NCBI RefSeq assembly: GCF_000172555.1
Contig: NZ_ABOX02000042.1
Coordinates: forward strand, 1-64,000
Direction of reading: 5' to 3'
DNA length: 64,000 bases
From: Pedosphaera parvula Ellin514
GTDB lineage: Bacteria; Verrucomicrobiota; Verrucomicrobiia; Limisphaerales; Pedosphaeraceae
The position numbers and the translations under genes were made by a program. Of this stretch, positions 47,305-58,155 are shown in pieces. The notes beneath the pieces are model-generated. The model saw only the letters and a list, made by a program, of their open reading frames with translations. It did not search any database and was not told where the DNA came from. Numbering within the stretch: position 1 is the stretch's first letter; each line of letters begins with the position of its first letter.

Positions 47305-48111
47305 ATGGCCAAAGCACCCTCCGTTAAATGGACTCGCGAGCAACTGCTCATCGCCATGAACCTGTACTGCAAACTGCAGTTCGGCCAATTCCACTCGCGC
47401 AATCCCATCATCATCCAAACCGCCGAGAAAATGGGACGCACAGCCAACAGCTTGGCCATGAAACTCAGCAACTTCGCCTCGCTCGACCCCGTGCAACAAG
47501 CTCGCGGCATCAAAGGACTCGCAGGTGCTAGCGAACAAGACCGGGAGGTTTGGAAAGAATTTCGTAAAGACTGGAATACCCTCGGCATCCAAAGCGAAGA
47601 CCTCTTCCAAAATCTCTTTGTTTCAACCGGTGAAAAAGAAGCCGAAATTTCCGACAAAGGGGTAAAAGTAAAACCAGCCAAAATTCTCACGCCTCCCACT
47701 GGTCCAACCGAGAAAACCGCACTCGTCAAAGTCCGCCGCAGCCAACAATTCTTCCGGCAAACCATTCTCAACATTTACCAACACCGCTGCTGCATCACCG
47801 GCATCGCCGTTCCCGAACTACTCGTCGCCAGCCATATCGTCCCATGGAGCCAATTCCCTGAACACCGCCTCGATCCCCAAAACGGCCTCTGCCTCTCCAG
47901 CATCCACGACGCCGCCTTCGACTCCGGCCTCGTCACTTTCGACGACAACCTCCGCCTGACCCTCAGCAAAGAACTCGAAAAATATTTTCCCCAAGAAGCC
48001 CTAGAAAAAAACTTTGCCGCCTATCAAGGCAAAACAATCTGCCAGCCGGAAAAGCTTTCAGAACCTAATCGTGAATTCTTGAAATACCATAGAACGGAAG
48101 TTTTTAAATAA
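47305..48111 (+). CDS. HNH endonuclease
   Basis: A 268-residue protein with an N-terminal helical domain (residues 1-95) and a C-terminal HNH nuclease (FFRQTILNIYQHRCCITGIA, LVASHIVPWSQFPEHR, NGLCLSSIHDAAFDSGLVTF). The HNH catalytic residues are H in ASHIVPW, N in QNGLC and H in IHDAAFD. The N-terminus has a SAP/terminal HTH-like look (LIAMNLYCKLQFGQFHSRNP) found in this common 'restriction endonuclease-like' HNH group. It lies at the left boundary of the methylase operon on the other strand. It could be the restriction partner, but proteins of this type also exist alone, so this is unproved. Confidence 0.83.
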   Translation: MAKAPSVKWTREQLLIAMNLYCKLQFGQFHSRNPIIIQTAEKMGRTANSLAMKLSNFASLDPVQQARGIKGLAGASEQDREVWKEFRKDWNTLGIQSEDLFQNLFVSTGEKEAEISDKGVKVKPAKILTPPTGPTEKTALVKVRRSQQFFRQTILNIYQHRCCITGIAVPELLVASHIVPWSQFPEHRLDPQNGLCLSSIHDAAFDSGLVTFDDNLRLTLSKELEKYFPQEALEKNFAAYQGKTICQPEKLSEPNREFLKYHRTEVFK

Positions 48112-48160: not shown

Positions 48161-48880
48161 TTACTTTCTTTGACGCAGTGACCTACCTGAACGGTGAAAA
48201 TGTCTGCAATTCGATTTTAATGGGCACTGATTACAAATCGGGTTCGCAGACTTACAAACGAGTGCGCCAAGATCCAAAATTGCCCAATTAATCATCCGAG
48301 GATCGTTATTCGTTACGATCATTTTCGACAGAGACTGAAGATAAGGATCGAACCGAATGTCGACAAGCTTTCGAGATCCAAAATACCGCTCCAACACGCG
48401 AGCCATGTTTACGTCCAGGAGAGGAGCTGGAACATCGTGAACAAACAAAAGGATGGCATTAGCAATGTATTGTCCAACACCTGGCAATAAAAGAATGTCT
48501 TCCTGTGTTTGCGGAAAACGTCCTTTCTCGGTACATATCTCGACAGCAAGGGCTTTGATTCTGGGAGCTCTTTGTCGAGATAGGCCTAATGGCTGAAGAA
48601 TTTTGCAAATTTTTTTCTCTGAAGTATTAGCAAGCGTGTCCCAATCAGAAAAAATGTTAATAAACTTGGGCCAATATAGTTCAACCGTCTCTGCACGAGT
48701 CCGTTGTAGAAGCAGTTCACTAACTATTAGGTGGTAGCTAGTTGCATTGTCATTTCTCCATGGAAATTCTCGTGCATTGACACGCCACCAATGCGACAAT
48801 TTCTTCTGGAATATAGCGATTTCTCTATCTAAAACAAATCTATGACCAACTTTCGACCGCTTATTTAGAAGACACTTCAT
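48161..48880 (-). CDS. HhH-GPD DNA glycosylase, Mig (thymine-DNA glycosylase) type
   Basis: A 239-residue HhH-GPD protein. The helix-hairpin-helix is LPGVGQYIANAI, with Tyr138 at the position that is Lys in EndoIII lyases and Ser in MutY, but Tyr in Mig.MthI, the thymine-DNA glycosylase partner of an archaeal C5 methylase. The catalytic acid is Asp156 (LLDVNMARVLERYFG) and Glu55 lies in VSELLLQRT. The C-terminal cluster C209-X6-C-X2-C-X5-C binds [4Fe-4S]. It probably removes T from G:T mismatches caused by 5-methylcytosine deamination, as needed next to the methylase encoded in the same operon. It is the last gene, 37 bases after the REC-HEPN gene. Confidence 0.85.
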   Translation of the reverse strand: MKCLLNKRSKVGHRFVLDREIAIFQKKLSHWWRVNAREFPWRNDNATSYHLIVSELLLQRTRAETVELYWPKFINIFSDWDTLANTSEKKICKILQPLGLSRQRAPRIKALAVEICTEKGRFPQTQEDILLLPGVGQYIANAILLFVHDVPAPLLDVNMARVLERYFGSRKLVDIRFDPYLQSLSKMIVTNNDPRMINWAILDLGALVCKSANPICNQCPLKSNCRHFHRSGRSLRQRK

Positions 48881-48917: not shown

Positions 48918-49916
48918 CTAGAGTAGAGAACTTAGCTCTACTAAGTTTTGCGAATGCCTTCTCAAATCCTTTCTAACCTTCACACACCATTTATCGTCAA
49001 AAATGAATTCGGCCCCGTCCTGTTTACGGTTTTTAAGGACAATCGAACCATCGCTTTTTTGTTCTTCTCGCACGTGGGCCAAGCTATTTCGTAAACTTAT
49101 AATTTCCCCCTCAACGGTCTTCATTTCTGCAAAGATCGCTTCCAATCTTGTTCTTCTGTTGCCAGCATCAAGCACTTTAGACTTATTTCCCAGCTTTTCT
49201 TCTTCTTTTAAAGACCTGATCGTCTCAGAGACACACCCAAGAAATAGACGCAGAGAATCTGAGGCTGTTAAGAACTTTTGTTTGCAAAAGGCATCCATTT
49301 TCTCTGGATCGCAATCAGCAACTGCACGAGCCTGTTTTTCTAAAAATTTTATTTTTTCCTTCAAAAAACTTTGGAGGCGCTTGATTTTGACTTCTCTTGG
49401 AACGACATCAAGATTCCGGGAAAGAAAGGCATCGACTACCTCGAGCATCTTCGATTCGATATCAATCGTTTCAGCAATTACTAATCCACGAGCATTATTC
49501 ACACTTTGCACCTTCCGTATGGTCAGAAAGATAACTTGTTTTATTTTATCTAAAAGCCCCGTACCCCGTCCCGCGTAAAGAGAGACCCGCTCAATCGGGC
49601 CAATTCTGTTCAGTTCTTTGGTTAACATTTCCGGGCTACCTGAATAAAAAAGGATCTCAGTGTATACTCGATGGTCCCTGATTTCCTTCAGTAAGACCCC
49701 ACCGTGATTATTGGCTTTATGATTTCCAGCTAAATTCAGATCAGTGATAATGAGATCGTAAAGATCATATTTGGTTGTTCCTGAACGGCTTTCTCTCCAA
49801 TCTATAGAAACTTGAAAACCAAAAGAGTCTAGATAAGCGGTAATGTCTGGCTCAAAATCGTCTTTAACGTATTCGGCGTTGTCTTCGAACCACAATATTC
49901 TGTAATGAAGTTTCAT
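48918..49916 (-). CDS. receiver-domain protein with C-terminal HEPN-like RNase motif
   Basis: A 332-residue protein. Residues 1-130 form a receiver (REC) domain: the acidic pair (E11 and D12 in LWFEDNAE), phospho-acceptor D59 (LIITDLNL) and S92 (LFYSGS). The C-terminus has LRNSLAHV with R276-N-S-L-A-H281, the RX4-6H motif of HEPN ribonucleases. The middle (150-250) is helical. I infer that phosphorylation of D59 controls the HEPN part. It overlaps the upstream ATPase gene by 4 bases (ATGA), so the pair is translationally coupled. HEPN proteins are common RNase effectors in defence systems; whether this one cuts RNA is unknown. Confidence 0.8.
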   Translation of the reverse strand: MKLHYRILWFEDNAEYVKDDFEPDITAYLDSFGFQVSIDWRESRSGTTKYDLYDLIITDLNLAGNHKANNHGGVLLKEIRDHRVYTEILFYSGSPEMLTKELNRIGPIERVSLYAGRGTGLLDKIKQVIFLTIRKVQSVNNARGLVIAETIDIESKMLEVVDAFLSRNLDVVPREVKIKRLQSFLKEKIKFLEKQARAVADCDPEKMDAFCKQKFLTASDSLRLFLGCVSETIRSLKEEEKLGNKSKVLDAGNRRTRLEAIFAEMKTVEGEIISLRNSLAHVREEQKSDGSIVLKNRKQDGAEFIFDDKWCVKVRKDLRRHSQNLVELSSLL

Positions 49917-52237
49917 TTTTTTAGATGTATTATGATTTCAGCTCCCTTTTTAAGAATTCGACCTATCTTGATTTCTCCCCCCATTTTTGTGATTAGTTGT
50001 TTTGCGTGATATAAGCCTAAACCGGAGCCGTCCGTAGTTGTGAATCCGAAATCAAAGATTTTGTCTGCACACTCTGGTATAATGCCATTGCCATTATCCA
50101 AAACACGTATTTCCAAGACCTGATCCTTGAGTAATTGGCAACTCACCTCCACTGCTGAAGCTCCCGCTTTACGGGAATTGTCGAAAAGGTTGTCTAATAT
50201 TATTATGATCTCGAGAGGTGTAAATCGAGTGTGCCACTTTAGCTTTGGCGAACACAAAACTTCAATGTTCAGCTGAGTGTTATTGACCTTAAATTCCTGA
50301 TATTCTTGATAGACATTTTGAACGTACTCTTTGATAAATTTTATCAAATCATCCTCGATCCATTTCGCTTCAACAGAAAAGTTAGCCTTGGTAACATAGC
50401 GCGATACACTTTGTATTTTTCTTATCTCTAAACTTATTACATTAATCAATTGGTACTGCTTCTCTCTATTCCCGCCAGTCTCAATCGCGCGTTTCAGATC
50501 AAGAAGCTTTCTATCAACTCGATTGGCGGAAATTCCGATCTGGTGTTGCAGAGCCATTACTTCCTTTGAGTCAGTACTGAGGGCAGACTTCAAAAACAAA
50601 TTCTCTCCCGCTAGTGAATCAACCTTTTGCGCCAATTCCTCTTTTTCTGCAACCACACTCTCAAGGCGTTTTTTCTGCCTTTCAAAAAGCGCCTGGACTC
50701 GTTTAAGCGCAGAAGTAGTTGCTAAGGCTAAGTTGTTTCTGTAGCCGGAAAATCCAGAAATTATCTGTTGAACCTTTTCTTCCTCTTCTTCGGAAAGAGC
50801 TTTGATTAGCTCAGTATTAATAAACAGTTTTATGACCTGATCTGGGCTTGTATTGATTGTCGTAGCAAGAGTTTGTAAGACTCGCAGTCTTTTATCTTTT
50901 TCACTCTCTGTGTAAACTTCTTCACTCGGGTCAAATTTCCAACCGGGTTCCTTTGCTTTTTGCTCGAAGGCTCGTACCGAGCTGTCAGGGGCCTTATCCC
51001 AGTTCAGACCTTCAGTTACATACCGCTCCAGTCTTCGATGAGCTAAAAAGTAAAATCCCTTACGGTCGGTAATTTGCTCGGTTCGAGTGTCACGGACAAC
51101 TCCTTCTCTGCTAGAAACAATTTTGTAATAGCCCTGCGGATCTTCAATTTCAATTCGCCCAACCACCTCTCTTGTGCCCAGGTTTCTTGCGTAACCTTGC
51201 GCTTTATGTCTATCCAGTCCAAGCCAATCGTCTTTTTCTTCACCATAAGGTGGTATTCGGAAGCCGTTAATAAATAAAAATATGGAGCCGAACTGCACCT
51301 TATCAAAACCGGTCATCTTTTTGAAATATCCTTTCGCATATGGATTGAGGTAGTAAATCACAGCCTTCACCCCCTTTAGAAGATGGAACCGGTTATTCTC
51401 TTCCACTAATTCAAAAATCAGTCGACCTTTATCTCGAAGGATAGTTGTAATCGTAGACCCATCCTCCGAAACTTGAGACTCTATTGATGTGGATGTAAAA
51501 TCTAGACGAGTAAAAATTTGGTTCTTAATTTCGCCGCTTACCGATTCGTTAAATTCGGGTGCGGCGAGAAATAATGAAAAGGGAGTTTTACTAAAGGCCT
51601 GATTTGGATTGAGTAAGCGTTCCAAGTATCTACGCAGTGACAACAATTTTTCATCGTTCCACTCACTCCTTAACTTACTAATTTCGAGAATCGTACCGTG
51701 GTTGAATCCTTTAAAGCGTGTGGTCTTTAAAAAAGTTGATTTTGTGATGATAGCCACCTCAACTGGCACCGTTTCAATCCGCTTATCTGGAGCATCGTCA
51801 ATCTCAAAATCCTTCCAGTTGACTTTCAGATGAACAATCGGACCTTTCTTAGTTTTCGTATATATATCTAAAAAATGCCCCAAGCGATCGCAAGAAAAAC
51901 GGCCTATCCCTTTTGCCCCTGCAAGAACTCTATCAAACTCCTTCTTTTTAGTTTTCTTTTCTGAGAAAGCGATATTCAACCACCTATTTTCGATCGCCCC
52001 TAAGTCCATTCCCTTTCCCCAATCTTGAATAATAATTTTGGAAGAATGCTTGGAATAAATAGGATTTTCAGAGTCATCGTTCGATAAAATGTTTTTGAAA
52101 CTAATATCGACCTTCCTCGAACCAGCATCGAATGCGTTTTTTACAAGCTCAAGTACTGCGATATTATCATTGTTGATTAAATCTTTTCCAATGATGCTCT
52201 TGAGCAGAACGTTAGTTTTAAAGTGAAGATTTGGCAT
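49913..52237 (-). CDS. dual GHKL ATPase, histidine-kinase-like sensor
   Basis: A 774-residue protein with two GHKL ATPase domains. The N-terminal one (residues about 15-230) has an Hsp90/MutL/MORC-like N-box E30-LVKNAFDA, G1 at DWGKGM (72-77) and a G2 region GAKGIGRFS (107-115). A helical region at 440-600 includes a histidine in LQHQIGIS near residue 550 that could be a dimerisation/phosphoacceptor helix. The C-terminal domain (about 655-774) is of the kinase type, with N-box LDNLFDNSRKAG, G1 VLDNGNGI and G2 GSGLGLYHAK. It overlaps the REC-HEPN gene and follows the methylase immediately (stop and start adjacent). It might sense phage DNA or stress and signal to the receiver; the phosphate transfer is only inferred. 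Confidence 0.82.
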   Translation of the reverse strand: MPNLHFKTNVLLKSIIGKDLINNDNIAVLELVKNAFDAGSRKVDISFKNILSNDDSENPIYSKHSSKIIIQDWGKGMDLGAIENRWLNIAFSEKKTKKKEFDRVLAGAKGIGRFSCDRLGHFLDIYTKTKKGPIVHLKVNWKDFEIDDAPDKRIETVPVEVAIITKSTFLKTTRFKGFNHGTILEISKLRSEWNDEKLLSLRRYLERLLNPNQAFSKTPFSLFLAAPEFNESVSGEIKNQIFTRLDFTSTSIESQVSEDGSTITTILRDKGRLIFELVEENNRFHLLKGVKAVIYYLNPYAKGYFKKMTGFDKVQFGSIFLFINGFRIPPYGEEKDDWLGLDRHKAQGYARNLGTREVVGRIEIEDPQGYYKIVSSREGVVRDTRTEQITDRKGFYFLAHRRLERYVTEGLNWDKAPDSSVRAFEQKAKEPGWKFDPSEEVYTESEKDKRLRVLQTLATTINTSPDQVIKLFINTELIKALSEEEEEKVQQIISGFSGYRNNLALATTSALKRVQALFERQKKRLESVVAEKEELAQKVDSLAGENLFLKSALSTDSKEVMALQHQIGISANRVDRKLLDLKRAIETGGNREKQYQLINVISLEIRKIQSVSRYVTKANFSVEAKWIEDDLIKFIKEYVQNVYQEYQEFKVNNTQLNIEVLCSPKLKWHTRFTPLEIIIILDNLFDNSRKAGASAVEVSCQLLKDQVLEIRVLDNGNGIIPECADKIFDFGFTTTDGSGLGLYHAKQLITKMGGEIKIGRILKKGAEIIIHLKK

Positions 52238-53443
52238 TTATAAAAGCTTCCGTAAAGCTAAACCTGCCTGCTCGGCAAAAAGCGGTGGAATTGCATTTCC
52301 AATTTGAGTATAACGAGGAACCTCTAGTCGCCTAAGTTTACCTCCGGTGGTGTATTTTCCTTTGAATTCAAAACGGTCTGGAAAAGACTGCAATCGCGCA
52401 TATTCTCTTACAGTCAGTATGCGCGGCTCACTATAATGAATGTAGTCATCTGGCAAACTCGTAAGAGTAGGACTCACGCTGTTTGCACAGAGGGGTGTTA
52501 TTGATCTTTTCTTTAATTTGTACTTAGCTTTTAACTCTTCCGAAATTTGCTTAGCTTTCGGCGCACGCCTAAGAATATCTCGGAAACGCCTAACTGTGGA
52601 TTTCTCATGTTTAGCAAAGCGATGACTGTCGGGCACCTCAGAAATCACGCCTTCACGCAAGAATCGCTGATAGCGACTTTGAGGAGTTGAATATGTACCA
52701 GCTAAAAAGCTCTTGGAATCAGGAGACTTAATCAGCCCATTACACTTCTGTAGATCACGAATTGCCTGTGAAACCGTGCACCTTGTAGGTAGCCCCTTCC
52801 GTTTCAAAAAACCAACCTTCTGCTTCTTTATAAGCTTAAAGAAGGCTTTAGCAGATCCTTTTAGTGTTCCGACAAGAATGTATCTCCGTCGACGTTGAGG
52901 AACCCCATATCCTGCAAAGTCAATCACGTCTGCAAATACATCGTATCCGAGCTTTCGAAGGAGCTTACAAACCTTATCCGAGTAAATCTCCCCTGAACCA
53001 TTTTTCGCAAATTCCATTGTAAAGCCCCTCACATTTTCGAAGAGAAGCAGCTTAGGCTTCACAATTTTTACGAAAGCAACATATGATTTCACCAACCTGT
53101 TGCGCTGGTCCTTTTCCTGACGTTTACCATTAACGGAAAATCCCTGACACGGTGGTCCGCCTGCCACGAGGGTAATTTTTCCTGCAAGCTTCTTCAGCTC
53201 GGAAGGATACTTCCTTATGACCTTTTTTATATCATGCGAAGTGGTGGGTAGCCACTTTGGCCATGCAAAGTGCTCCTCCATATCAACGAGATTATGTTTA
53301 AGTGTAGCAAATGCCATCGGATCCTTTTCGATGGCAATTACACCTTTCCACCCTGCTTTCATTAATCCGTACGAAAGTCCTCCGCAGCCTGCAAAAAGAT
53401 CAACTACAGTTAGATTCGGTTGACGTCTGCGCCGTTTACTCAC
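52238..53443 (-). CDS. C5-cytosine DNA methyltransferase
   Basis: A 401-residue enzyme with all key motifs: motif I VVDLFAGCGGLSYGL, motif IV GGPPCQGFSVNGKRQ (catalytic Cys99), motif VI ENVRGF, motif VIII QRRRRYILVG and motif X IGNAIPPLFAEQAG. It would make 5-methylcytosine in a specific DNA sequence, which cannot be read from the sequence; the target-recognition region lies between motifs VIII and IX. It overlaps the XRE gene by 4 bases and directly adjoins the GHKL gene. No restriction endonuclease gene is co-directional in the operon. Codon use and GC content appear lower than in the flanks, as for the whole operon, suggesting transfer. Confidence 0.93.
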   Translation of the reverse strand: MSKRRRRQPNLTVVDLFAGCGGLSYGLMKAGWKGVIAIEKDPMAFATLKHNLVDMEEHFAWPKWLPTTSHDIKKVIRKYPSELKKLAGKITLVAGGPPCQGFSVNGKRQEKDQRNRLVKSYVAFVKIVKPKLLLFENVRGFTMEFAKNGSGEIYSDKVCKLLRKLGYDVFADVIDFAGYGVPQRRRRYILVGTLKGSAKAFFKLIKKQKVGFLKRKGLPTRCTVSQAIRDLQKCNGLIKSPDSKSFLAGTYSTPQSRYQRFLREGVISEVPDSHRFAKHEKSTVRRFRDILRRAPKAKQISEELKAKYKLKKRSITPLCANSVSPTLTSLPDDYIHYSEPRILTVREYARLQSFPDRFEFKGKYTTGGKLRRLEVPRYTQIGNAIPPLFAEQAGLALRKLL

Positions 53444-53667
53444 GCATCCACCCCCTTACAAAGCTCGGAAATGGAGATTCCTAATGCTTTTGCAATGCGA
53501 GCAACATTTTTGATACCAGGATTACGCAGGCCCCTTTCAATTCCACTAACATACGTCGGATCAAGAGTAGCCCGTTCTGCGAGCTTCTCTTGAGTCAATT
53601 TTTTGCTAACCCTTTTTGTACGAACTGCGTCCCCAAATGCCTTGAGAACAGGATCATGCGATGGCAT
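53440..53667 (-). CDS. XRE-family (controller-like) regulator
   Basis: A 75-residue helix-turn-helix protein from the ATG at 53667 (MPSHDPVLKAFGDAVRTKR), of the size of restriction-modification C proteins. The HTH is QEKLAERATLDPTYVSGIERGLRNP, and the tail ALGISISELCKG matches the family. The longer frame to 53703 is possible, but the inverted repeat described next abuts the 53667 ATG, supporting that start. It overlaps the methylase by 4 bases and is the first gene of the operon, so it probably controls its own transcription and that of the methylase. Controller function is inferred from the context. Confidence 0.78.
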   Translation of the reverse strand: MPSHDPVLKAFGDAVRTKRVSKKLTQEKLAERATLDPTYVSGIERGLRNPGIKNVARIAKALGISISELCKGVDA

Positions 53668-53717
53668 TGACTCATCGTCTATGGACCAACCAGCTTCGTC
53701 CATGGACGATGAGTCAA
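53667..53717 (-). promoter_or_regulatory. 20-bp inverted repeat, likely controller operator
   Basis: Left arm 53667-53686 and right arm 53698-53717 match at 19 of 20 positions, separated by an 11-base spacer. The arms contain gactcatcgtc and gacgatgagtc, which resemble the GACTnnnAGTC C-box of restriction-modification controllers with one change each. The left arm ends at the XRE start codon, so bound protein would block initiation. A hairpin masking the start is an alternative. Confidence 0.75.
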
Positions 53718-54003: not shown

Positions 54004-55875
54004 TCACTCCATCCCCAACTGCTCCTGCAAAAACGCGATATTCACTCGGGCCTGTTCACGTTGTCGCGCGAGTTGAGCCAGTTGAGCCTGGACCAATCGC
54101 AACCGCGCATTGAACAACGTTTGCAATTCACCGAACTTCCGCTCGCACGCGAGCGCCTCCTCTTTCAGCTTCTCCAGCCGCTCCTGCACCCGCCGCTCAA
54201 TCTCCTGCCGCAACGAATTCGACATCGGCTTCGACGCATCATATTTGAAAATCCCTTCACACGTCTTGCGCCACGCCAGCAATCCCAAAACCTGCGTTTC
54301 ACCCAATCCCGCGATCTTCGCCAATGCCGCTTCCGTGATGTCGGCCGTCGTTTCGATGCCGTGCGATTGCAACATCGTCTTGTCACCCAATCCCACCCCG
54401 GACACCAACGCATCGCGCAACAACAAATCGTCCAAAAATTCCTGCATCTGATACTTCTTGCGATCCCCCGCCAGGTCACCTTCAATGTCCCGTCGCACAT
54501 GCCCCGGCCGGCTCAACATGCGCAACATCGGCAGGACGACGGCATGCAGTTTGGAAAACTCCCGGTTATAATCCGCTACGAGCATCTGTTGACTCGGGGC
54601 GCTCTGCAACGAGGCTTCGGCTTCCGCCAGGGCTTTCTGGTTCGCGTCCAGCGCGGTGGACAGCCAATTCTTTTTCCAGCCGCCAAGAGCCACTGTTTTT
54701 TGCAGCGAATTCCAAAGTCCCGCCGGTTCCGATGGCAGCGCCTCGGGTGCCAGATCAGCAAAGACGGGCAGCGGCTCGATGGCAAACGGATGCGGACGTA
54801 TGCTGCGCAAGCGCGTGATAAAATCCGCCTCCTTCAACAGCATGCTTGTGTCACTGGTATGCTCTTCGCGGAATGGAAAGAGATCCACCTCCGTCTCACG
54901 CATCACGGAACACCACGGGCATTCCACTGCCTTTTTCCAAAAGATATGTCCCGAATGATTTGCGCACGCCGTGAGGTTTTTCAACAATTCTTCCAGGCAT
55001 TCCTTCCACTCCGCCGCCTGCGGTCTCGCCTTCGGCGCCTCCGAACCCTTCAAAAACGCGCGCATGAAAAGCTCCTGCATGCATCCCGGCAACGCCGTCA
55101 AGGCTGGACAACCCGGCGGTGGTGCGAGCGGCAAACCAAGTTCTTTCGGCGCGAAAGCAAACGCGAATTCGCCGATCGCCGCCTCCGGTGTCAGTTGTTT
55201 TCCCCCGCGTGGCACACCGGCAAACGGATGTCGCCCGGCAAAGCACAAAAGAAATATCAACTGTGCCAGCCCGAACAAATCATGATTCACATCCCGATGC
55301 AGGCCAACCAGATTTTTGCCCTGCAACTCCGGCGGCGTCCACAACGGCGTCCCCACATCCGAAGTGTAAACCGTCCCTTCATCCGCCACTTGAAAGCTGT
55401 CACAATCAATCAATCGCACGGTGGCATCCGGCAGGACTTTGACATTTTGTTCGCTGATGTCCCCGATCACAATTTCATGGCAATGCAGCTCATCGAAAAC
55501 GTGGGCGAGATTATACGCCACATGCGCCATGAACCTGAAACTGGCCTTGGGAAAATGATGCAGCCGCGCCCGCGTGCCGTAGAGATCATGAATTTCATGC
55601 CCACGCACAAATGGAATCAGAATGCCAACCACCTTGGATAAATCCGCATCGGCGAAGAGCAAAGACTTGGGCAATGCCGCCACCTTTGAAAGTGCCTCTG
55701 CGCGCGACCGCAGCAACTTCAACTTCCGGGTTTGCACCACGTCCGGCTTTTCATGATAAACCTTTACGCACAGCGTCTCGGTGTCCTTGAGGCGATAAAG
55801 CACCCCCTCGCCGCCGCTGGCAAACTGGTCGCCCAGTGGCAGCATCCTTCCCGACTCGTCATAAACTTCATTCAT
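54004..55875 (-). CDS. protein kinase with zinc-ribbon and HhH, TerY-P triad kinase
   Basis: About 623 residues from the ATG at 55875. The N-terminal Ser/Thr kinase domain has a glycine-rich loop SGGEGVLYRL, VAIK-type Lys in CVKVYHEK, catalytic loop IGDISEQNVKV (D in place of HRD's D) and metal motif DCDSF (a variant DFG). A cysteine cluster (CANHSGHIFW, then CPWCSVM) suggests a zinc ribbon near residue 320. A helix-hairpin-helix (VSGVGLGDKTML, then IAGLGETQVLGLL) and coiled coil follow. This order is typical of the kinase in the TerY-P signalling triad. The gene overlaps the phosphatase upstream, and a cognate phosphorylation switch is likely. Substrate is unknown. Confidence 0.82.
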   Translation of the reverse strand: MNEVYDESGRMLPLGDQFASGGEGVLYRLKDTETLCVKVYHEKPDVVQTRKLKLLRSRAEALSKVAALPKSLLFADADLSKVVGILIPFVRGHEIHDLYGTRARLHHFPKASFRFMAHVAYNLAHVFDELHCHEIVIGDISEQNVKVLPDATVRLIDCDSFQVADEGTVYTSDVGTPLWTPPELQGKNLVGLHRDVNHDLFGLAQLIFLLCFAGRHPFAGVPRGGKQLTPEAAIGEFAFAFAPKELGLPLAPPPGCPALTALPGCMQELFMRAFLKGSEAPKARPQAAEWKECLEELLKNLTACANHSGHIFWKKAVECPWCSVMRETEVDLFPFREEHTSDTSMLLKEADFITRLRSIRPHPFAIEPLPVFADLAPEALPSEPAGLWNSLQKTVALGGWKKNWLSTALDANQKALAEAEASLQSAPSQQMLVADYNREFSKLHAVVLPMLRMLSRPGHVRRDIEGDLAGDRKKYQMQEFLDDLLLRDALVSGVGLGDKTMLQSHGIETTADITEAALAKIAGLGETQVLGLLAWRKTCEGIFKYDASKPMSNSLRQEIERRVQERLEKLKEEALACERKFGELQTLFNARLRLVQAQLAQLARQREQARVNIAFLQEQLGME

Positions 55876-56644
55876 CATGCACCATGAGAACGAGGCTTTT
55901 GTCGTCGTCGGTTCGGGCGCATACGCGCTCCGATTCCAATAATTGGTGCAGACCGGAACTGAAACTTTCCTGATTCATCTCCGACTTGAGCCGGCGGGCC
56001 AGTGGTGAAAAAAATGGCGGATGCGGAATACACGCATTCATATCCAACGCCAGCCGTTCCAATCCGTCGGTGATCCCCACAATGAAATCCAGCCGTCCAT
56101 CGATGCGCCCCATCTGAAAGGAACTCGCCGCCGTCGGTGAAGTCACAAATTCAGTCTGCCCAACAAATTCTCCCTGTGCCGGCCACGTAACCGCTCCGAG
56201 AATCCCGCCTCGCGAGGCCGCCCAACACCCGTCGCCAATTTGAAAGAAAAGGGAAATTTTCGGATGCGCCACGGATACCAGCAATGTGCAGGCAAAATCC
56301 TGCACTGGCGCCCGTCGTTCAGCAGCCAGTTGCTGCAGCGTTCTCTGCTGCTCCTGGATCATCAGCTTGCCATCCAGCCGCTCGTAAGCTGCCAGGACCC
56401 GCGCTGGATCAGGATGATCATTCAGTTCGCGGGCGAAAAACTCAATCGCTCCCTCCGAAACCAACTGTGCAGCTTCATCAGCAAAACGCGCCGACCCCGC
56501 ACCATCAGATAACGCGCAAATGACAACATTCCGATCCGGCCCCACAACTCGCAATGTGCTCCAGTCCTGGCATGGCAGGCAGTTCTCCAAATGCGCCGAA
56601 CCACGCACTGACGCGTTTGCGAATTTCCACATCGCTCTAGACAT
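55868..56644 (-). CDS. PP2C-type protein phosphatase, TerY-P triad
   Basis: 258 residues. The start MSRAMWKFANASVRGSAH may be the downstream MWKF (56632), as in related phosphatases; the 56644 ATG is given. Metal-binding PP2C motifs are visible: CALSDGAGSARFADEAA (the D and G of motif 1-2), FQIGDGCWAASRGG and FIVGITDGLERL. It should remove phosphate from Ser/Thr, opposing the kinase encoded downstream by an 11-base overlap. The vWA gene upstream overlaps by 8 bases. The three genes are one translationally coupled cassette. Confidence 0.88.
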   Translation of the reverse strand: MSRAMWKFANASVRGSAHLENCLPCQDWSTLRVVGPDRNVVICALSDGAGSARFADEAAQLVSEGAIEFFARELNDHPDPARVLAAYERLDGKLMIQEQQRTLQQLAAERRAPVQDFACTLLVSVAHPKISLFFQIGDGCWAASRGGILGAVTWPAQGEFVGQTEFVTSPTAASSFQMGRIDGRLDFIVGITDGLERLALDMNACIPHPPFFSPLARRLKSEMNQESFSSGLHQLLESERVCARTDDDKSLVLMVHDE

Positions 56645-57326
56645 TCACTGTGGCCCAGCCGGCGATGGAAGGCAGAACGATTCCCTGCGTGCCGGGATTG
56701 GCCGAGGAAACCGTCCTCAGCGACGAGGATAGCCATGTGAACAACCCTTGGAAATCCAAACCGTTCAGCTTGATCGCCGGTCGGCTTGCTGGACACAACT
56801 CATTCAGCTTCCCTTGATTCGCATCGGACACCGCCACACCAAAAAACATTAATTTTTTATCCACCTCACCTGCTCTTACAATCTCAACCGCCTGTCTCCA
56901 GTTCGCCGTTTCGTAATCCGTTGGCTCTCCATCCGTGATCAGAAAAATCCATGGGCGAAAATAACTCACCCCTGCCGCCCGGTATTTTCTCTTTCTTTTT
57001 TCCAACAGCTCGCAGGCCTGCACCACCGCTTCACCCATCGGCGTCTTGCCACCCGCCTCGAAACGCGGCGGCACGAATGCTGAGGGACTGACAAAATCCT
57101 GCACAATATGCACCCCGTCACCAAAGGTGATGATGGCTGTCTCCACTCGCTTGCACGCCAGCCGGCTCCGCGTCAAATCATGGGCAAAAAGGTCCACACC
57201 CAAATTCAAAAAATCAATGGCCGCTCCCCGCATCGAACTGGACACATCCAGCACCAGCACGCACGGGCACCTCGGCTCCGGATTGTCGACGAATTCGACA
57301 TCAATAAATGGCAGTTGGTCACTCAT
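56637..57326 (-). CDS. vWA domain protein, TerY-like
   Basis: About 229 residues from the ATG at 57326 (MSDQLPFIDVEFVDN). A frame to 57401 adds 25 residues encoded by a near-duplicated stretch (two ccctttatccacagt copies) and looks spurious. The von Willebrand A domain has the MIDAS motif DVSSSMRGAAIDF, the conserved Thr in KTPMGEAV and the Asp of LITDGEPTD. TerY-type vWA proteins act as metal-dependent adaptor proteins near kinase and phosphatase genes in stress or phage-resistance gene clusters. No TerD, TerC or TerB genes are in the window, so the triad may act with another effector. Confidence 0.88.
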   Translation of the reverse strand: MSDQLPFIDVEFVDNPEPRCPCVLVLDVSSSMRGAAIDFLNLGVDLFAHDLTRSRLACKRVETAIITFGDGVHIVQDFVSPSAFVPPRFEAGGKTPMGEAVVQACELLEKRKRKYRAAGVSYFRPWIFLITDGEPTDYETANWRQAVEIVRAGEVDKKLMFFGVAVSDANQGKLNELCPASRPAIKLNGLDFQGLFTWLSSSLRTVSSANPGTQGIVLPSIAGWATVNV

Positions 57327-58155
57327 GGCATATTCCTGTTCGTTAACTGTCTTAATTCCTCTTCCCTTTATCCACAGTCCCTTTATCCACAGTCTCACCA
57401 ATTCGCGAAACCAAGTCTTATGGTCCGCACATCACTTTCATCCGACCTCTTGGCACCTCTTACAGCCACATGTCCTATTTTAAGGCAATATTGGCTGCCT
57501 GGATGCGCTATGTCTATACCTCCTTAGCAAGAACGTTGCCCAACTCCCGAAATCGATTCATTCTTTTTATAAACACCTCCTCCAAAACTCTCCTCCCCCT
57601 CTCAACTGCGGATATCTCATGCTCCTTTCAAATAAAATGGCATTGTGCGGAGAACACTCTGGCCCTGCATACGCTCTGTTGTAAAATGACCTCCCTGTAG
57701 ATTTCCCGGATATCAGACTCGACAAAACCCATCGCTTTTCATCATCCCAAATCCCGATTCCGAAAATCAACCACCGCCACCAATGCCGATGAGAAAACCA
57801 CCCCGCTACTCACGCTGAAATTACTTTCGCTTCGCCTCCTTTCCTCTCCATTAAAACAACTTCGGTGGCTGTAATACGTTAAATAATGCTGTCTGAATAA
57901 ACCTCGCACCGGCTCGAAATTCAGACCCCGGAGGATCACCAGCAACCCGTTTCTCAACCTCTTGCGAAATTACCGCGTGCCTTAAATCTGGACAGAACAA
58001 AACGTGATTCGCTTCTCTTCATGTCAAACACTCGAGCCAACCTGAGCTCTAAATAGTGGCACGCAGTTGTAAGGATTTTGATTGCATGCGCAGTCGAATT
58101 TCCAATACTGCTTCATCCAACTGGACCAGCGGCTCGAATTCCACTACGTTCTAAT
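57327..58155. other. 829-base gap with no recognisable gene
   Basis: Short open frames only, none with a motif or ribosome binding site. Contains the upstream region of the vWA operon and of the chitinase gene. A direct repeat ccctttatccacagt occurs twice in 57361-57391. No promoter could be placed with confidence. Confidence 0.5.

Follow-up and report, generated by a model that had tools for sequence, protein, structure and literature searches.

The 51-bp inverted repeat that abuts the start codon of a small XRE gene in Pedosphaera parvula Ellin514 is very probably the autoregulatory operator of a restriction-modification (RM) controller of the C type, in a wide-spaced form of the C-box pair. 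The boxes of this operator lie 36 bp apart, centre to centre, in the window (the whole 64,000-nt stretch of DNA analyzed here), and we provisionally regard the 36-38 bp geometry found in the window and its relatives as new to the controller-protein family. It adds a well-supported operator arrangement to that family, and it ties a controller to the little-understood systems composed of a methylase, a GHKL protein, and a response regulator.

The repeat occupies positions 53667-53717 on the minus strand and ends at the ATG at 53667-53665. Read on the plus strand, its arms are TTGACTCATCGTCTATGGAC (53667-53686) and GTCCATGGACGATGAGTCAA (53698-53717), with the 11-bp spacer CAACCAGCTTC between them. 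Read directly from the sequence, the 20-bp arms are complementary at 19 of 20 positions; the near-perfect repeat ending at the XRE ATG is just as the preliminary description had it, and the 11-mer one change away from GACTnnnAGTC, GACTCATCGTC, is present in each arm. On the minus strand, distal box A (53705-53715) reads GACTCATCGTC, matches 7/8 of the GACTnnnAGTC core, and has CATG and a GAC half box after it. Proximal box B (53669-53679, minus strand) reads GACGATGAGTC, also matches 7/8 of the core, and lies 1 nt from the ATG.

Could such a structure be a chance palindrome? The one-mismatch core does occur at background frequency (16 in the window against 14.7 expected), so single boxes prove nothing, and the significance rests only on the pairing, symmetry, and position of the boxes, not on the core alone. 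The probability of a chance origin is nevertheless negligible. We estimate that chance would produce about 2e-4 inverted repeats of such length, match, and distance in 64 kb; in the shuffle test that was also applied to homologues (below), the window repeat gives p = 0.005, the floor of the test, and 25 homologous loci have the same layout. It is the sole inverted repeat with arms >16 nt in the 64-kb window. Genome-wide DNA and pattern searches found no second copy in the 7.4-Mb genome, and chance or a dispersed repeat was ruled out on these searches.

The gene that follows the repeat encodes a C-like XRE/HTH_3 protein of 75 aa (53440-53667, minus strand; HTH_3 8e-16, PADLOC Control_protein 1.8e-17). 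Its best solved relatives by sequence are the RM controllers C.AhdI (4.7e-10), C.Esp1396I, and C.BclI, a kinship that bears out the earlier assignment of the protein as an RM controller. As expected of a C protein, it is small (about 70-100 aa) with a single HTH_3 domain akin to those of characterized C proteins; its gene lies directly 5' of, and overlaps by 4 nt, the gene of a C5-cytosine DNA methyltransferase (52238-53443, minus strand; DNA_methylase 1.2e-54); and a GACTnnnAGTC-like box pair, conserved in relatives, lies upstream. The window departs from the family in lacking the classical tandem spacing of about 15 bp centre to centre within a 35-bp site. The main base contacts of C.Esp1396I are R35, T36, and R46 (PMC4041747). 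The window protein keeps the equivalents of T36 and R46 and has a proline at that of R35; homologues with P, A, or Q at this position also retain the operator. A longer open reading frame starting at 53703 was rejected: this start falls inside the repeat, and relatives with a stop immediately upstream, together with the alignment of MPKRD.., favor 53667, as do the register of the conserved blocks at the ATG and the reading frame of relatives, closed one codon upstream. Viral and plasmid collections yielded distant controllers only; a relative on plasmid pEC22 serves as the classical example for comparison.

About 55 relatives of the XRE protein were gathered from the same order and phylum, the closer ones 57-75% identical, and most are encoded immediately upstream of a C5-methylase gene. 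Two blocks are conserved in their upstream regions, GGCTGATMGTCCATAGAC and, abutting the ATG, YATGGACTATSAGTC. The best inverted repeat was searched for in 53 homologues without the window motif and tested against shuffles. In 23 of the 53, it falls in the register seen in the window, with 0 nt to the ATG and 15-17 nt separating 16-nt arms; among the 24 homologues with at least 63% identity, 14 reach p <= 0.05. Across 20 loci of equal spacing, conservation amounts to 1.64 and 1.69 bits per column in the two arms, compared with 0.74 in the middle and 0.23 outside. The preliminary description had named absence of the repeat from homologous operons as grounds for abandoning its reading; this check has now been run, and the repeat is present.

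Box pairs were then scored by the published core GACTnnnAGTC only, with dinucleotide shuffles as the control. The centre spacing is bimodal, with 26 loci (25 homologues plus the window) at 36-38 bp and 11 at 15 bp, although 15-19 of the 56 loci fit neither class clearly and locus counts are not independent trials because the homologues share descent. These pairs beat their shuffles at p <= 0.04, mostly at 0.003-0.013, and the window at 0.007. In the wide class, box B lies 0-3 nt from the start codon, and in most homologues it is GACTATSAGTC directly before the ATG, while the 11 tandem loci carry the textbook C-box, such as GACTCATAGTC-CCTA-GACTTATAGTC in L110. Both classes, where the start codon is clear, have box A starting about 48-50 nt ahead of the ATG; box A of the window, about 48 nt upstream, is thus where tandem-class homologues have theirs. 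On a controller tree, which is poorly resolved, the wide and tandem classes cluster, requiring 6 changes where shuffles average 17.5. From these alignments, we infer that in the wide class box A has kept its usual place, that the neighboring box B has decayed to the GAC half-site, and that a new box B has arisen at the start codon, where its distance to box A is 36 bp (15 + 21, or two helical turns further downstream). The C-box pair of the preliminary description therefore stands as far as its C-box-like, conserved arms are concerned and fails in its geometry, which at 36 bp against about 15 is not that of the classical tandem. It is supported as a wide-spaced variant because homologues form a 36-38 bp class and their arms are strongly conserved.

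The homologues also bear on whether the repeat acts mainly in RNA, as a hairpin masking the start codon or regulating controller translation. In the window RNA, the hairpin is indeed very stable (-40.8 kcal/mol, z -6.6 for the repeat strand) and ends at the ATG. Both blocks are conserved in the homologues, but their pairing is imperfect: of 20 homologues, 15 have C-T at one position, a second position is mixed, and two inner positions almost never pair. The energies predicted for the homologues are only -10 to -23 kcal/mol, with other folds in several; each half fits the core of a protein site instead; and the hairpin is absent from tandem-class relatives. We consider this reading improbable, and a hairpin was rejected as the main function since pairing has not been perfected in the homologues.

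Beyond the methylase, the operon encodes a GHKL protein with HATPase_c_3 and HATPase_c domains (49913-52237, minus strand), a probable restriction or effector component whose N-terminus is distantly like the BbrUII/HgiDII restriction enzymes (1.4e-14, below the curated cut-off). Its response-regulator-like partner (48918-49916, minus strand) has no Pfam match and is conserved by neighborhood and tblastn. A MutY/HhH-GPD-like DNA glycosylase (48161-48880, minus strand; TIGR01084 4e-47, below cut-off; HhH-GPD 1e-14) closes the operon where related systems have Vsr, and its relatives (45-53%) are found near the methylase in L008, L041, and L042. Repair of deaminated 5-methylcytosine is a role usually taken by Vsr; here, it probably falls to the MutY-like enzyme. 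Convergent with the operon is an HNH_2 nuclease gene (47305-48111, plus strand; PF13391 2e-14, PADLOC HNH 1.4e-96), a candidate restriction enzyme. Relatives of this nuclease (46-62%) adjoin the controller, mostly convergently, in L094, L107, L087, L096, L090, L093, L118, and L071, and among nucleases found near the related two-component-like RM elements, HNH_2 is the most frequent (PMC8011034). HNH_2 relatives often start about 10-20 bp past the end of a truncated methylase match. The HNH_2 gene and the GHKL/response-regulator pair are both candidates for the restriction partner of the methylase, and both were overlooked when the region was said to have no conventional restriction gene.

Where does this operon come from? 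The methylase has 36 relatives in other phyla; it is kept together with the GHKL protein in most of these loci and with the response regulator in most of those, and the controller is usually missing from the operon there. L040, a relative of the same methylase-GHKL-response-regulator operon, has a controller with C-box-like GACTTATA repeats upstream. In L077, the order controller, methylase, GHKL protein, response regulator is that of the window, with a convergent Vsr gene, but the C-box is a textbook tandem. This methylase is found in just 2 of the 320 genomes of the order, and homology with the DNA of a same-family genome breaks off at 54004; the operon was thus probably acquired as an insertion. 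Upstream on the same strand, a cluster of VWA, PP2C phosphatase, and kinase-like genes (54004-57401) has 72% DNA identity to the same-family genome. The insertion could suggest that the repeat is a mobile-element boundary, a terminal repeat or REP-like element unrelated to the XRE protein. This is very unlikely: the genome holds no further copy, and the repeat is kept before homologous controllers in other chromosomal contexts, where it ends at the start codon. It goes with the controller gene rather than with the end of the island, and the boundary reading was rejected.

How would the wide-spaced operator work? Dimers of the 75-aa protein would bind box A and the box B that touches the ATG. 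In a naive cell with little controller, the operon from controller to glycosylase would be transcribed; as controller builds up, box B would become occupied, initiation or early elongation would be blocked, and expression would be capped. Box A may assist binding or serve to activate the promoter. The repeat, its conservation and geometry, and the kinship of the protein are observed; that the controller binds, that it does so cooperatively, where the promoter lies, and in which direction regulation runs are what we infer. A scan found no sigma-70-like promoter, and a terminator scan was likewise empty. With box B lying over the start region, abundant controller would be likely to repress the operon, either through occlusion or as an elongation roadblock in the manner of C.Kpn2I (PMC6237814).

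Might the pair still be a classical activator-repressor switch, its two strong boxes serving as OL and OR despite their spacing and delaying restriction? This is possible but doubtful. The protein family and the box core are classical, box A is in the tandem-class position, and the Csp231I and EcoO109I controllers tolerate about 18-25 bp between operators (PMC3115060). Against this, the boxes stand 36 bp apart and not 15, box B lies over the start codon region, and with controller and methylase in one operon restriction would not be selectively delayed unless the HNH gene or another promoter is involved. In known systems, the C gene usually precedes the restriction gene, and the classical delay is that of the restriction enzyme (PMC6237814). 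The preliminary description had predicted a delayed methylase on the classical model, and this does not hold: C and M overlap by 4 bp in a single operon, which leaves C no means of delaying M relative to itself at the level of transcription initiation. For the operator as we read it, the operon anatomy predicts a capped methylase level, not a delayed methylase.

Wide operators stand before methylases of five or more groups that are <40% identical to one another, and one controller module thus serves several methylase types. In L143, the locus of the closest controller relative (75%), the genes that follow encode a methylase and a GHKL protein; L129 and L139 have controller-methylase operons with a further gene, read as a restriction enzyme from its place. 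L141 (G018:C35) has two controller genes about 1.1 kb apart, each with its own start-codon operator and its own methylase type. In one methylase group, 12 of 15 loci combine a truncated methylase match with an intact controller and operator, and such loci possibly represent orphan controllers kept after methylase loss. Short matches, of about 46-230 of 350 residues, are seen in L083, L084, L086, L087, L088, L090, L094, L096, L098, L107, L114, and L115. We tentatively suggest, as a conjecture we would not yet bet on, a separate class of RM switch in which box A is fixed and a repressing box two helical turns downstream, on the start codon, blocks transcription start or elongation. Controller and operator would form a module that moves between unrelated methylases, persists after methylase loss, and possibly excludes incoming RM systems of the same control specificity. 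The tandem and wide forms in close relatives are natural variants with which to test whether spacing turns the activator-repressor switch into another circuit.

How does the window compare with systems already described? Like the HEF_HK/Response_reg_2 elements (PMC8011034), it has a GHKL ATPase and a receiver-like protein beside a C5-methylase, with an HNH_2 nuclease and a mismatch-repair gene nearby. It differs in that the repair gene is MutY-like and not Vsr; PF19191 (HEF_HK) and PF19192 (Response_reg_2) have no match among the window proteins even at E 10, and the paper on these elements mentions no controllers (PMC8011034). C.Kpn2I shares an operator that overlaps the start region of its own gene, where it acts as an elongation roadblock (PMC6237814), but its site is inside the coding region and its methylase is controlled by overlapping divergent promoters, so a roadblock here is by analogy only. 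An unusually wide operator pair is shared with C.Csp231I and C.EcoO109I of motif 8 (about 18 bp, and 7 more in EcoO109I; PMC3115060), whose core is CTAAG-N5-CTTAG and whose longer proteins have two extra helices. With C.AhdI, C.Esp1396I, C.BclI, and C.PvuII, the window controller has in common a small single-domain HTH_3 protein related in sequence, GACTnnnAGTC-type boxes, GTC-N4-GAC junctions, and a gene that comes first in the RM operon. Unlike them, it has boxes 36 bp apart instead of about 15, a proximal box on the start codon, a place in the operon of the methylase, and a proline at the R35-equivalent position.
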